Below, one piece after another: positions 5,618-64,000 of a DNA stretch of 64,000 nucleotides. The notes beneath the pieces were generated by a model. The model saw only the letters and a program-made list of their open reading frames with translations. It was not told where the DNA came from and ran no database searches. The position numbers and the translations under genes are program-made. How positions within the stretch are numbered: the stretch's first letter is position 1; every line of letters begins with the position of its first letter. Origin of the DNA: Anaerocolumna cellulosilytica (GTDB lineage: Bacteria; Bacillota; Clostridia; Lachnospirales; Lachnospiraceae); NCBI RefSeq assembly GCF_014218335.1, contig NZ_AP023367.1, positions 3,039,501 to 3,103,500 on the forward strand. Reading direction: 5' to 3'.

Positions 5618-5690
5618 AACCAATTTAGCTCCCATCTGCGATCTTTAATCGCGTACAAATCAAGGGGTTGAATATTTTATTCAACCTTTC
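5618..5690 (-). promoter_or_regulatory. Type II leader element of the metalloprotease gene
   Basis: Reading the minus strand: hairpin GGTTGAATA / TATTCAACC (5666-5686), a CTTGATT spacer, hairpin GCGAT-taaag-ATCGC (5638-5652), then ATGGGAG, whose GGGAG (5629-5633) serves as ribosome site. The same order recurs upstream of thiI, hemW and eutQ. Confidence 0.6.
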
Positions 5691-15828: not shown

Positions 15829-15932
15829 TATTTTACCCAGCATACCGCAGTTTTTCCTGTGGTATTGCCACTCTTAAAAAGGTTGAAAGAATAGCTATGT
15901 GGCAACCTTTCTATTAAAATTTTCTTTCATCC
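15829..15932 (-). promoter_or_regulatory. Type I leader element upstream of speE
   Basis: It fills exactly the gap between the decarboxylase stop and the speE start. On the minus strand: GGATGAAAGAA pairs with TTCTTTCAACC (one mismatch); GCCAC in the loop pairs with GTGGC beyond it; then GCAATACCACAG pairs with CTGCGGTATGC; then GGGT and the ATG. Compare the copies at 29942, 61746 and 62801. Confidence 0.65.
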
Positions 15933-17386
15933 TATAAATTAACAACATTAATGTTGTTGACTGCCATATCTTCTGTTCCTGTAAGGAGACAGCCTTTATC
16001 CTTCGCATATAAGATATAATTAACAATTTCATCTGTAATCCGCTCTCCCGGTGCCAGTATGGGAATTCCCGGAGGATAGCACATAACAAATTCTCCGCAG
16101 ATTTCTCCTACAGTCTTTTTAATAGGTAAAGCCTTTTTGTCACTATAGAAAGCTATTTGAGGTGGTAAAACTACATCTGGATCGATATACTCATGATCGA
16201 ACATACCGGTTACATCCTCTTTGCCGTACAGTCTTTTAATTTCTGATAAGGAAGCTATAAGCCGTTCAATTTCCAATGCTCTGTCACCTGCTGATATAAT
16301 TGCCAGAAAATTACTGATATCACCGAACTCAATCTGTATACCATATTCATCCCTTAGTAAATCATAAACCTCAATACCGGCCAGACCCATCTTTCTGGTA
16401 TGAACTGATAGTTTTGTAGGGTCAAAATCAAAAACTGCGTCGTAGTCAACCAGTTCAGAACCAAAAGCATAAAAATCACCCAGCTTATTAATTTCATCCC
16501 TTGCATATTCTGCATATTCTACCGTCTTTTTAAATAATTCCCTTCCATGCAGGCTTAAATTTTTTCTCGCCAAATCCAGAGAAACCAATAACAGATATGA
16601 CCCGCTGGTTGTCTGCGTTAAGTTAACTACCTGCCGTACATGGTGAGGATTTACTCCCTCACCGCAAAGTAAAAAGGAACTTTGTGTAAGAGAACCTCCT
16701 GTCTTATGCATACTTACAGCAGCCATATCCGCTCCTGCTTCCATTGCGGATACCGGCATATTGTCACCAAAGTAAAAATGGGTGCCATGCGCTTCGTCTA
16801 CCAATACCTTCACGTTATGTTCATGAGCGAAGTCTACAATCCCTCTTAAATCAGAGCATATTCCGTAGTAGGTTGGATTATTCACAAGAATTGCCTTTGC
16901 CTCAGGATGCTCTGTTATAGCTTGTTTTACATCCTCTAAAGACATTCCTAAAGGTATTCCAAGGTCACGGTTTACTCCTGGATTTACATATATGGGTATA
17001 GCACCACATACTACTAATGCATTGATTGCACTTCTATGCACATTTCTGGGCATAATAATTTTATCTCCCGCTTTGCAGACAGACATTATCATCCCTTGCA
17101 CAGAAGCAGTTGTTCCGTTCACAATAAACAAGGCGGCTTCAGCACCAAAAGCATCGGCTGCAATCTGTTCTGCTTCGCGAATCACAGACGTCGGATGACA
17201 CAGGTTGTCCAGAGGTTTCATGGAATTGACATCCACCTTTAAGCAATTTTCGCCTAAAAAGTCTGTTAGTTCCTTGTTACCTCTGCCGCCTTTATGACCC
17301 GGTACATCAAATGGTACGACTCTGTTTGATTTATGTTTTACCAGCGCTTCATAAATAGGCGCTTTTTGTTGTAAAAGTATATTCAT
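15932..17386 (-). CDS. Arg/Orn/Lys decarboxylase (SpeA-type, fold I)
   Basis: A PLP-dependent decarboxylase of about 484 residues, the length of the short Gram-positive SpeA class. It supplies agmatine, putrescine or cadaverine to the downstream enzymes. Motifs are FDVPGHKGG near residue 25, NPTYYGICSDL, VDEAHGTHFYFG and the PLP lysine in SMHKTGGSLTQSS. Arginine is the usual substrate of this class, but no agmatinase or agmatine deiminase gene is seen here, so the substrate is open. The start is taken as ATG 17386; ATG 17398 lies only two bases after GGAAAGG. A type III leader precedes it. Confidence 0.88.
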   Translation of the reverse strand: MNILLQQKAPIYEALVKHKSNRVVPFDVPGHKGGRGNKELTDFLGENCLKVDVNSMKPLDNLCHPTSVIREAEQIAADAFGAEAALFIVNGTTASVQGMIMSVCKAGDKIIMPRNVHRSAINALVVCGAIPIYVNPGVNRDLGIPLGMSLEDVKQAITEHPEAKAILVNNPTYYGICSDLRGIVDFAHEHNVKVLVDEAHGTHFYFGDNMPVSAMEAGADMAAVSMHKTGGSLTQSSFLLCGEGVNPHHVRQVVNLTQTTSGSYLLLVSLDLARKNLSLHGRELFKKTVEYAEYARDEINKLGDFYAFGSELVDYDAVFDFDPTKLSVHTRKMGLAGIEVYDLLRDEYGIQIEFGDISNFLAIISAGDRALEIERLIASLSEIKRLYGKEDVTGMFDHEYIDPDVVLPPQIAFYSDKKALPIKKTVGEICGEFVMCYPPGIPILAPGERITDEIVNYILYAKDKGCLLTGTEDMAVNNINVVNL

Positions 17387-29941: not shown

Positions 29942-30048
29942 TCTTTTACCGCTTGCTTACCGCAGATTTGCCTGTGATACTGCCACAAATAGACAGTTTT
30001 ATAGAATCCTCTGTGGCAACCTTTCTATCTTCTATATTTTCTACCAAC
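29942..30048 (-). promoter_or_regulatory. Type I leader element upstream of the desulfurase gene
   Basis: Same layout as the other three copies, but the first helix has changed to GGTAGAA against TTCTATA (elsewhere GAAAGAA against TTCTTTC), so pairing is kept by paired changes. GCCACA and TGTGGC are unchanged. The final stem is GCAGTATCACAG against CTGCGGTAAGC. Confidence 0.65.
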
Positions 30049-30118
30049 TTTATTTTCATCACATATCACAAAACAGACCGGGGCATTTTTATATTTCTTC
30101 AATCCCGTTTACAGTACA

Positions 30119-38532: not shown

Positions 38533-38690
38533 GTAAACTCCCGTATGTGTGCAAAGTGCACCTTATAATAAAGATGTTGAATAACCTTTTTTCAACTTAA
38601 CTCCCGTATGTGTGCAAAGTACACCTTATAATAAAGATGTTGAAAACCTTTTTTCAACTTAACTCCTGTTAGTGTATTTGACACACGTAG
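38533..38690 (-). repeat. Three tandem type II leader units upstream of hemW
   Basis: Units begin at 38536, 38599 and 38661 (periods 63 and 62 bases); the third is partial and diverged. Reading the minus strand each has TTGAAAAAAGG/TTCAAC, a CTTTATTATAAGG spacer, hairpin GTGCA-ctt-TGCAC and GGGAGTT. The last GGGAG is the hemW ribosome site; the inner ones precede TTG codons that open very short frames. Confidence 0.75.
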
Positions 38691-53891: not shown

Positions 53892-54030
53892 CTGACTCCC
53901 ATCCGTGCGCTTTAGTGCACATTTTAATCAAGACGTTGAAAAACTTCTTTAGTTTTTCAACCTGACTCCCATCCGTGCGCTTTAGTGCACATTTTAATCA
54001 AGACGTTGAAAAACACTTGCGTTTTTAACA
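53892..54030 (-). repeat. Two tandem type II leader units upstream of eutQ
   Basis: Units begin at 53892 and 53962 (period 70); about 53 bases are identical. On the minus strand each has GTTGAA/TTCAAC (or GTTAAA), CTTGATTAAAAT, hairpin GTGCACTAAAGCGCAC and GGATGGGAGTCAG. The inner GGGAG is followed by a TTG that opens a short frame; the outer one serves eutQ. Confidence 0.75.
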
Positions 54031-61094: not shown

Positions 61095-61745
61095 CTACAC
61101 TCTGGGGTTTTCTGCAACAAATTCCACAGCTGCGGCAAAGGCTTCACACGCTGCCTTGCAGGCTGACTGACTTCCGGTAAGTAGAGCGCCACCAAAGTTA
61201 GTTTCTGATGGTGGTGCATATAACACACAAAGAGTTACATCGGCTGCCTTTAGTGCCGCATCAATTCCATACATAGCTTCAAGAGGTGGTGCAATTAAGT
61301 AGGCCAATGCCTCACCCTCTCGGATGCCTGCACTTTCTGAAAGATATGTTCCGGTTCTTGATATACAGTGCGCATAATAGGCAATGCTATCATCCTCATT
61401 GGCAGAGACAAAATAGGCTTCTCTTTCAATGGTATCAACCGCAGCTTCCAAACCACTTTTTACTTCTGCCGGATTGGGTCCGGCAAGTATACCAATTACT
61501 TCTCCGGCAAGCTTTGTATTGGCATTCGCTGCACCACCATAAAAACTTTTAGCATATACCACCGAAACAACCGCTTTCTTTGTTGCTTCATCCAAAGCTG
61601 TATAGGTTACATCATCACAGTCAGCAGTAATTAAAGCTAAGGATTTTTGATCTGGTGCCAACTTCAATTCTCTTGCCAACTCAGGACTAACATTGGGAAT
61701 AATTTTTGTCGCAAGGACACTTGCTCTTACTGGATCTCTTTTCAT
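61095..61745 (-). CDS. eutL: Microcompartment shell protein EutL (trimer, tandem BMC)
   Basis: About 216 residues. EutL forms pseudohexameric trimers with a gated central pore that may bind ethanolamine. Both BMC halves are visible: VRASVLATKIIPNVSPELARELKL near the start and YGIDAALKAADVTLCVLYAPPSETNFGGALLTGSQSACKAACEAFAAAVEFVAENP at the end. I start at ATG 61745 rather than 61757: the distance from GGGT in the type I leader then equals that in the other three copies. It lies between eutC and the K-like gene. Confidence 0.94.
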   Translation of the reverse strand: MKRDPVRASVLATKIIPNVSPELARELKLAPDQKSLALITADCDDVTYTALDEATKKAVVSVVYAKSFYGGAANANTKLAGEVIGILAGPNPAEVKSGLEAAVDTIEREAYFVSANEDDSIAYYAHCISRTGTYLSESAGIREGEALAYLIAPPLEAMYGIDAALKAADVTLCVLYAPPSETNFGGALLTGSQSACKAACEAFAAAVEFVAENPRV

Positions 61746-61850
61746 CTCTATACCCATTGCATATCGCAGGTAAACTTACGATACTGCCACATAAAACATG
61801 TCGAAAGAATGTGTTGTGGCGTCCTTTCTTTTTTATTATTTTCTTCCAAC
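61746..61850 (-). promoter_or_regulatory. Type I leader element upstream of eutL
   Basis: Helix 1 is GTTGGAAGAA against TTCTTTCGAC, kept by two G-U pairs compared with the eutC copy. GCCACA / TGTGGC is unchanged. The third stem is weaker on its left arm (GCAGTATCG) against CGATATGC. GGGT and the ATG follow. Confidence 0.65.
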
Positions 61851-61912
61851 TAAGCTTCCTAATATAACAGGACTAATGATTACAAAACTTAATATATCTT
61901 TGCTTCGAATAA

Positions 61913-62800
61913 CTATAGCTTTAATTCCGTACCGCTTACTTTTTTATCCAGCATGATTTTAATTACTTCTGCGATATGTGCACCTGCCTCTGCAGGAATG
62001 GTTCCTGCTCTGTGAATATTAGATATAACCGTTCTTCTAGCTTCCGGCATACCCACAGTGGCTTTGTATGCTATATATGCGGACATGGACTCTGCCGTAA
62101 TAAGACCTGGCCTTTCTCCAATTAAAACACAAGTAACTTCGGCTCCTGTTATTTCTGAAACCTGATCCATAACACCTACCCTTCCGTATTTTACAAAAAA
62201 GGGAGTTCCTGTTTCTATTCCATAACTCTTTAGCCCCTGCAAAATACCTGGGAGAATATCGCCTACATTTGCTGCAACTGCCGCAGAACTTAAACCATCC
62301 GACACATAAATTTGTACGGTAGGGTTCTTTTTGCATTTTTCAGCTACAACTTTAGCACCATCCTCTGTCAATTTTCTGCCAAGGTCCGGTCTGGTTAAAT
62401 ATACATCCTTACTGTCACACTGACTCTGTACAGTGAATAGCCCCATATTATCAATAAAATCCTGGTCAACGTCAGAAAACACTGCATCCTGTGCTGCGGA
62501 GTGGGCAGCACGGAACTGAAGCAGCGGATCTGTTTTATATCTAGCTCCTGCTCGTCCAATTCCTAAGCGGCATGGTGCATTTTGCTTTAACTCATAATAC
62601 GCTTCTCCATTCACAGGTGCCTCTACTAGATATTGCTTTCTTATATCCACCTCAGTAATATCTGGTATGAAGCCCTCCTCTACTACCGTTTGTGCTACTG
62701 TCTTTTTCACTTCTTCAATAACTGCTCCCGGCTCTTTGCCCTGGCCATTCATTTCTTCCAGAACCTGCTCAATGATTTTTCTTAAGTCATTCTCATTCAT
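61913..62800 (-). CDS. eutC: Ethanolamine ammonia-lyase small subunit
   Basis: A 295-residue subunit of the adenosylcobalamin enzyme that splits ethanolamine to acetaldehyde and ammonia. Family blocks are [14 protein letters not shown]-like ([31 protein letters not shown]), [26 protein letters not shown] and [24 protein letters not shown]. The first 15 residues ([18 protein letters not shown]) look like an encapsulation helix. It follows eutB across a type I leader that contains its start signals. Confidence 0.96.
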
Positions 62801-62908
62801 CTTTACACCCGTTGCATATTGCAGGTTAGCTGCAATACTGCCACAAATAGAACAGGTTGAAAGAATGGCTGTGTGGCATCCTTTCTACTTTTATATTTTC
62901 TTTCAACC
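62801..62908 (-). promoter_or_regulatory. Type I leader element upstream of eutC (clearest copy)
   Basis: On the minus strand: GGTTGAAAGAA (62898-62908) pairs with TTCTTTCAACC (62855-62865). GCCACA (62872-62877) in that loop pairs with TGTGGC (62840-62845) beyond it, so the helices cross. Then GCAGTATTGCAG (62830-62841) pairs with CTGCAATATGC (62814-62824), followed by CGGGTG and the ATG. Confidence 0.7.
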
Positions 62909-62922
62909 TTACAACCTCCTTC

Positions 62923-64000
62923 CTATTTGCTCATGAACACGGATGCGTCTCCGGCAAGTTTTGTTAATTTACCATTTTCCATAAATCCCATTTTTTCCAT
63001 CCATTGTTCAAACTCTTTGATAGGTCGAAGTCCAAGGATTTCACGAATCGCAGCTGTTTCGTGGTATCCAGTACACTGATACATAAGCATACAGTCATCA
63101 CCCTGCGGTACACCCATAATATAGTTACATCCTGCACTTGCTAACAGCATTGCCAAATTCTCGATATCATTCTGATCTGCTTTCATATGGTTGGTATAGC
63201 ATGCATCACACCCCATAGGCAATCCAGTTAATTTACCCATAAAATGATCTTCTAAGCCTGCGCGGATTACCTGTTTTGAATCATACAGATATTCCGGCCC
63301 TATGAATCCCACTACGGTATTAACCAGAAATGGCTGATAACGTTTAGCAAAACCATAGCATCTGGCTTCCATAGTAACCTGGTCCCATCCATGATGAGCT
63401 TCTGAAGAAAGCTCAGAGCCTTGTCCTGTTTCAAAATACATTACATTCGGTCCGGTACTGGTACCCTTACTTAACATCATCTTCTGTCCTTCTTCTAACA
63501 TTTTAGCAGTTAGTCCGAAAGCTTCATTACCTTTTTGTGAGCCGGCAATTGATTGAAACATTAAATCAATAGGTGCATTGAATTTATCTGCAGCTTCTGT
63601 CTGTGTTGTAACATGTGCAAGAACACAAACCTGTGTCGGTATTTCCCATTTATTCTTAAATTCATCAAAGCTCTTTAAGATTCTAGCTACGCTTTCTACG
63701 GAATCGTCAACCGGATTTAGACCCAGTACAGCATCACCTACCCCTAAGCTAAAGCCTTCCATAGTAGAAGCAATAATTCCCTTTGGATTATCTGTCGTGT
63801 GGTTTGGCTGTAATCTAGCGGAAAAGGTTCCCGGAAGACCAATAGTTGTATTACAATGAGCTGTTACCCTTATCTTACTTGCTCCGTAGATTAAGTCCAT
63901 ATTGCTCATTACTTTGCAGACTGCTGCAACCATTTCACTGGTAATTCCTCTGGATATACGGCGTATCATTACGCCGTCTGTCTTTGAATCTAATATCCAT
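62923..64000 (-). CDS. eutB: Ethanolamine ammonia-lyase large subunit (5' end outside)
   Basis: About 358 C-terminal residues of the roughly 455-residue catalytic subunit are visible; the frame stays open through base 64000. It binds adenosylcobalamin and starts the radical deamination of ethanolamine. Conserved parts include RISRGITSEMVAAVCKVMSNMDLIYGA, NTTIGLPGTFSARLQPNHTTDNPKGI, MYFETGQGSELSSEAHHGWDQVTMEARCYGFAK and GLPMGCDACYTNHMKADQNDIEN. Upstream regulatory genes such as eutV/eutW or eutA would lie beyond the edge. Confidence 0.97.
   Translation of the reverse strand, partial: WILDSKTDGVMIRRISRGITSEMVAAVCKVMSNMDLIYGASKIRVTAHCNTTIGLPGTFSARLQPNHTTDNPKGIIASTMEGFSLGVGDAVLGLNPVDDSVESVARILKSFDEFKNKWEIPTQVCVLAHVTTQTEAADKFNAPIDLMFQSIAGSQKGNEAFGLTAKMLEEGQKMMLSKGTSTGPNVMYFETGQGSELSSEAHHGWDQVTMEARCYGFAKRYQPFLVNTVVGFIGPEYLYDSKQVIRAGLEDHFMGKLTGLPMGCDACYTNHMKADQNDIENLAMLLASAGCNYIMGVPQGDDCMLMYQCTGYHETAAIREILGLRPIKEFEQWMEKMGFMENGKLTKLAGDASVFMSK

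Follow-up and report, generated by a model that had tools for sequence, protein, structure and literature searches.

We hypothesise that a non-coding element of about 105 nucleotides (nt) from the Lachnospiraceae, here called type I, is a small mobile element which enters the gap between a Shine-Dalgarno (SD) sequence and its start codon, replaces the ribosome-binding site of the gene and has its fold kept thereafter, and we consider this the probable explanation. The proposal is based on one clean presence/absence site, near-exclusive placement before start codons, a weaker old SD in diverged copies and two-sided changes in three helices. As we envisage it, the element would enter in the sense direction, a few nt before the start, and its SD-like 3′ end (GGGTG or GGAGG) together with an A-rich spacer would let the gene keep an initiation region, while the old SD, displaced to about 110 nt upstream, would turn dispensable and then decay. 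The transcript is predicted to fold into helix 1, a helix 2 that crosses it (an H-type pseudoknot) and a helix 3 that immediately precedes the new SD, and selection after insertion would maintain this fold, most simply as an insulator presenting the new SD to the ribosome, which is the role we suggest for it. Insertion itself appears to be targeted, and not merely selected.

Structure and distribution of the element

The window, the whole stretch of 64,000 nt that was analysed, contains four type I copies, which direct sequence check placed where a preliminary description had reported them, all on the minus strand (Table 1). Helices 1, 2 and 3 can be drawn in all four, and helix 2 does cross helix 1, its first arm lying within the helix 1 loop and its second past helix 1. 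An alignment of the four copies gives ten counted pairs in helix 1 and seven each in helices 2 and 3, with standard pairs in 92.7% of the 96 pair cells, versus 34–47% when the partner is slid by 1–3 columns. The preliminary description had read helix 1 as changed on both arms in the copy before the nifS-type gene; one two-sided change (A-U to U-A) is indeed present there, but two of the ten counted pairs are broken. Its other observations on pairing hold, in that two helix 1 pairs of the eutL copy are preserved through G-U and two pairs of helix 3 carry two-sided changes among the four copies; helix 2 shows none in the window. The layout of GGGT followed by the start codon stands insofar as an in-frame ATG follows GGGT, but the mechanical open reading frame (ORF) starts of eutL and speE fall within the element; the ATG is the likelier true start of both genes. 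The operons concerned had been described as having no common function, and by Pfam the genes downstream of three of the copies are unrelated, namely EutC, a class-V aminotransferase and spermidine synthase.

Table 1. Type I and type II elements in the window, with the parts of the eutC copy (positions of the window)
Feature	Position	Strand	Basis
Whole type I element before eutC	62801..62909	-	sequence, alignment, model search
Helix 1, 5′ arm, eutC copy	62898..62907	-	alignment, pair count
Helix 1, 3′ arm, eutC copy	62856..62865	-	alignment, pair count
Helix 2 (pseudoknot), 5′ arm, in helix 1 loop, eutC copy	62872..62878	-	alignment, pair counts
Helix 2 (pseudoknot), 3′ arm, eutC copy	62839..62845	-	alignment, pair counts
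Helix 3, 5′ arm, eutC copy	62831..62837	-	alignment, pair count
Helix 3, 3′ arm, eutC copy	62817..62823	-	alignment, pair count
Element's own SD-like GGGTG, ahead of the eutC ATG (62798-62800)	62806..62810	-	sequence; many-copy SD energies
Older SD AAGGAGG, upstream of the eutC element	62915..62921	-	sequence; many-copy SD energies
Type I element before eutL	61746..61852	-	sequence, alignment
Type I element before class-V aminotransferase (nifS-type) gene	29942..30050	-	sequence, alignment
Type I element before speE	15829..15933	-	sequence, alignment
Type II element	5625..5686	-	model search, sequence
Two tandem type II elements	38534..38659	-	sequence, model search
Two tandem type II elements	53892..54030	-	sequence, model search

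Further copies had been predicted, and a covariance model built from the four (R1) found them in the 5.43-Mb genome of Anaerocolumna cellulosilytica: at least 145 matches at E ≤ 10 and at least 113 below 0.01, the four included, among the best 150 of 4,417 candidates scored, so that their recurrence exceeds chance. Since the discovery pattern fixes GCCAC and ATTCTTTCA, the alignment A5 is biased to these letters of helix 2 and helix 1, and pair counts were therefore redone on own-genome copies found by a second covariance model, R2, itself built from A5. In 107 such copies two-sided changes occur at 22 of the 23 pairs, with 232 two-sided cells against 58 ± 10 after shuffling and a covariation score of 0.315 against 0.046–0.071 when slid. 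Pairs are kept through two-sided changes beyond these controls, which is the property by which we recognise a structured cis-acting RNA. Nor did the comparison with Rfam yield a match that would name the elements: Rfam 15 at the gathering cut-off has none over the whole window, a permissive scan of 61700-62950 gave one match (E 0.82) off the elements, and a permissive scan of seven loci gave six, none of them on a type I element. The earlier reading, in which a structured element without an Rfam name recurs with helices that cross and covary, is thus supported; to it we add that copies are inserted between the start codon and an older SD, that they carry an SD-like sequence of their own, and that a second family shares the layout. 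A promoter scan returned nothing at the eutC and eutL copies, and no G+C-rich hairpin with a T run after it, as in an intrinsic terminator or attenuator, was detected in 61600-63100 by a scan confined to loops of 3–8, outside which helix 1 with its long loop falls.

Two-sided base-pair changes support all three helices, the crossing one included. Only helices 1 and 3 guided the own-genome alignment; helix 2 is absent from the pairing of the models and has few two-sided cells in this genome (9 in 6 pairs). In distant genera, helix 2 is rebuilt with other letters, as CTGCCATAT/ATATGGCAG and ACTGCCC/GGGCAGT, and it reaches p < 0.05 against shuffles in 7 of 11 distant elements, the exceptions being L185 (where the script picked the wrong helix 1), L191, L194 and L195. 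These 11 come from the 25 loci L181-L205, with the 80-nt forms, L188, L192, L204, L186, L197 and the Anaerocolumna locus L198 omitted.

Constraint on the fold is also seen as copies diverge. Broken pairs stay at 6.5–9% across divergence quartiles, versus 23–27% expected under independent change at the same rate (n = 106); as copies with helices 1 and 3 intact are favoured by the models, this low rate partly reflects the choice of matches. In all 20 ortholog rows compared, the elements are more similar to each other, gaps not counted, than are the 80 nt that precede them. The rows, each presumed to go back to a shared insertion, are not all independent (six come from two loci), and gene conversion between copies could also cause this likeness. 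One such pair (L154/L208) has helix 3 changed on both sides, from ACCGC/GCGGT to ATCGC/GCGAT. Two copies in one relative (G014) have lost much of the fold, one through a 31-nt internal deletion and the other through reduction to some 25 nt at the 3′ end, and in both the gene is still present, which argues against a constant need for the fold.

Type I matches at E ≤ 0.1 were found with R1 in 14 of 14 other Anaerocolumna genomes examined, ranging from 3 to at least 93 per genome (93 being the number of candidates scored), and in none of 26 genomes from outside the genus in the same sample. R2 reached further, into at least 19 of 397 genomes of the family (Lachnospiraceae; E ≤ 0.001), which belong to 17 of 334 genera, Anaerocolumna among them, and at least 9 of 392 genomes of the order at E ≤ 0.0001, five of these in one genus of another family by model score alone; both counts are lower bounds, with at most nine candidates scored per genome. 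As scoring in the search models depends on helices 1 and 3, decayed copies are under-counted. Among the matches listed by a pattern scan of named genomes were Anaerocolumna species and metagenome-assembled genomes (MAGs), Robinsoniella peoriensis, Clostridium sp. KNHs205, L. phytofermentans KNHs2131, one Herbinix MAG and Clostridiales MAGs; isolated matches in Pelagibacteraceae and Ruminococcus records are probably chance hits. Outside Anaerocolumna the distribution within the family is patchy, and some genera have a shorter form, of about 80 nt, that lacks the helix 2 loop. One copy lies on a 17.8 kb IMG/VR contig (L179 280-391, minus strand), and the element may therefore also travel on a prophage.

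The second element, type II, is about 65 nt long, has the layout of type I and ends in its own SD-like GATGGGAG or GATAGGAG. It has 129 own-genome matches at E ≤ 0.01 and occurs in 13 of 15 Anaerocolumna genomes, and types I and II are each found behind the SD of the other. A run of about eight type II elements lies at G000:C1:3296977-3297537. In Anaerocolumna sp. AGMB13025 the 5′ half of type I alone is tandemly repeated (about 53 nt, helix 1 and one helix 2 arm; L113 4442-4760, L105 3681-3832, L161 1942-2047), and at L007, L060 and L120 a third short kind of hairpin (GCCGC...GCGGCAT...), perhaps another family, stands immediately ahead of type I copies.

Evidence for insertion between SD and start codon

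Type I elements are insertions. At the one fully clean empty site, G011 reads AAGGAGGAATAAAAATG, and G012 and G014, with the same genes on both sides and flanks 87–91% identical, are filled, the element lying between AAGGAGGAA(TAA) and ATG; most other aligned pairs are too diverged to show such a site. Because these three genomes are not rooted, precise excision in G011 is also possible. Relatives also differ at the HPr and ptsI genes, where the element is present in some and the SD-start gap is plain in the others. Moreover, G010 carries eight near-identical copies with different flanks and a common right end, GGGTGTAA, each preceded by an SD-like purine run that differs between copies by manual reading. 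By reading, the ends AGGTTGAAAG... and ...GGGTGTAA are not complementary, so that terminal inverted repeats of the MITE type are absent. A target-site duplication of 3–4 nt (TAA/ATAA) is possible at the clean site, but in G010 the left flanks of the identical copies differ and GGGTGTAA is retained. A different insert of 128 nt with inverted arms lies upstream of an SD in G011 (L208 6506-6635) and is absent from G012.

Placement was assessed in 118 distinct own-genome copies, taken from R2 at E ≤ 0.05 for 100 loci and from R1 for the remainder. In 104 of them the element runs directly into a start codon (ATG 101, GTG 2, TTG 1) whose ORF spans 40 codons or more or stays open up to where the locus ends; by manual reading, seven of the other 14 run into another element or hairpin and seven are low-scoring with indistinct ends. 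Across many genomes, the element end falls exactly at ATG in 178 of 201 distinct copies. The young copies, that is the 60 of 310 from several genomes with a copy at least 90% identical elsewhere, follow the same rule: a script placed 54 at a start and two before another element, and the last four are explained by reading, two in a tandem array (L321) and two with an ATG about 11 nt further on (L065, L174). These four are the youngest of 22 among the 310 for which the script found no position or recognised neighbour. With those 22 unplaced by script, no copy was seen interrupting a coding sequence. Targeting by a DNA motif alone was considered and rejected: a crude gene call puts 42 of the 77 intergenic SD-like motifs in the window ahead of a start, a share too small for chance to yield near-exclusive placement; the other 35, in the same crude count, are not before a start, yet are hardly used by the element.

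The 3′ end of the element is its own SD-like GGGTG, which presumably serves as an SD. If the divergence of a copy may be taken to stand for its age, the older SD would be lost with time. Energies were computed with the anti-SD sequence, a strong SD being one at or below -5 kcal/mol. From the class with nearest-copy identity of 90–100% through 80–90, 70–80 and 60–70 to below 60% (n = 60, 87, 87, 61 and 15), the old SD is strong in 70, 52, 24, 16 and 33% of copies and the element's own SD in 73, 57, 59, 44 and 53%, with a background of strong SD of 14–25% by quartile. The lowest class (n = 15, 33%) departs from the trend of decay; over all 310 copies the quartile version of the comparison gives a Spearman correlation of -0.50.

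Candidate movers and rival explanations

Neither a mobilising gene nor an autonomous copy was found, the latter in the fetched loci (partly overlapping), as judged by the spacing of the 5′ and 3′ halves: 225 of 264 matches to the 5′ half have the 3′ half within 60 nt, and nine of the other 39 have a later one, eight at 73–218 nt and one, weak, at 3,404 nt. Reverse transcriptase as the mover was rejected, RVT_1 (PF00078) having no match at E ≤ 1e-5 in four element-bearing genomes (G006, G009, G071, G136) among 28 chosen genomes scanned.

Several features would suit REP-like elements mobilised by an IS200/IS605-type Y1 transposase (RAYT): the ends are not inverted repeats, a hairpin lies near each of them, placement is in the sense direction and tandems run head to tail. 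However, Y1_Tnp (PF01797) has no match at E ≤ 1e-5 in five of the same 28 genomes (G006, G008, G009, G010, G012), all Anaerocolumna with 28–93 listed copies and including G010 with its near-identical ones, so we rejected it as a companion. Furthermore, helix 1 begins at the very 5′ end, whereas the ends of IS200/605 have a subterminal hairpin, and we regard this origin as very unlikely. Spread without any transposase can also be imagined, in which replication template switching between SD-like microhomologies would copy the cassette (SD, hairpins, SD) into the SD of another gene, with polymerase stalling at the hairpins helping. SD-like sequence on both flanks, the existence of tandem arrays and the failure of either tested enzyme family (Y1_Tnp, RVT_1) to track copy number are consistent with this, but the shared sequence is only a few nt, the SD-like motifs away from starts are common and hardly used, and selection on the pseudoknot is left unexplained. 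We therefore hold it to be unlikely.

Two further explanations concern what the element does. A cis-regulatory RNA, riboswitch-like or a protein-bound leader steering a regulon, whose copies spread and are kept for control, would account for the constraint on structure, conservation in place and the position adjoining the SD. Against it, 20 own-genome downstream proteins scanned with Pfam belong to unrelated families with no evident common function, and a shared riboswitch ligand is unlikely for that reason; moreover, match numbers differ between Anaerocolumna genomes as given above, copies occur in tandem and nested with type II, and some are gutted with the gene still present. This makes control of a regulon decidedly unlikely. 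In many young copies the element parts a good SD from its ATG, which could instead mean that it is excised or passed over during expression (a tiny intron, translational bypass or a ribosome shunt) and that the old SD still works. Splicing or shunting is disfavoured because diverged copies have an old SD close to background and yet retain the element's own SD, and because no copy was seen inside a coding sequence, where an intron would be tolerable (22 of 310 unplaced by script); such skipping seems hardly credible.

Returning to a mobile element that enters the SD-start gap, we tentatively suggest a wider version, which may be right but which we do not favour over a narrower one: a separate mobile class with the translation initiation region as its niche. 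This class would comprise at least two families (type I of about 105 nt with the related form of about 80 nt, and type II of about 65 nt) sharing one layout of 5′ hairpin, linker, 3′ hairpin, SD and A-rich spacer, would recognise the SD-start gap without inverted ends, would rewrite ribosome-binding sites genome-wide and would depend on a novel mobilising activity.

Relation to known repeats and significance

REP elements are 20–40 bp long, often have a GTAG-type head and are associated with REP-flanked RAYT genes (PMC2817692, PMC3733652). Type I resembles REP and BIME in being small, high-copy, palindromic, mostly extragenic, non-coding and expanded in particular genomes (PMC2817692, PMC3733652), but differs in its length of about 105 nt, its pseudoknot, its place before starts, its own SD-like end and the lack of a Y1 gene in five high-copy genomes. 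BOX and RUP of Streptococcus pneumoniae have terminal inverted repeats and target duplications and, with SPRITE, are enriched between convergent genes (PMC3049150). These too are small structured Firmicute repeats, BOX and RUP with more than 100 copies and BOX modular (PMC3049150), whereas type I lacks inverted ends and sits in the sense direction before starts. The TAACTGA heptamer repeats of Beggiatoaceae are also abundant, within several nt of start codons and ahead of genes without a pattern, with little SD character (PMC4679880); unlike them, type I is a folded element that supplies an SD-like end, with an older SD remaining upstream of it. The accessible parts of PMC4679880, PMC2817692 and PMC3049150 contain no description that we could find of elements that insert between SD and start and bring an SD, and a keyword search of the open PMC literature, with subscription papers and preprints outside its scope, likewise found none.

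If our hypothesis is correct, the ribosome-binding sites of about 100 genes in one bacterium have been replaced by a mobile folded element. This would be an unusual route of persistence for mobile DNA, because the insertion restores what it disrupts. Because the copies would differ in age, they would also offer a natural set of initiation regions in which to follow the decay of an unused SD and the effects of upstream structure on initiation, and they would point to an undescribed insertion mechanism.
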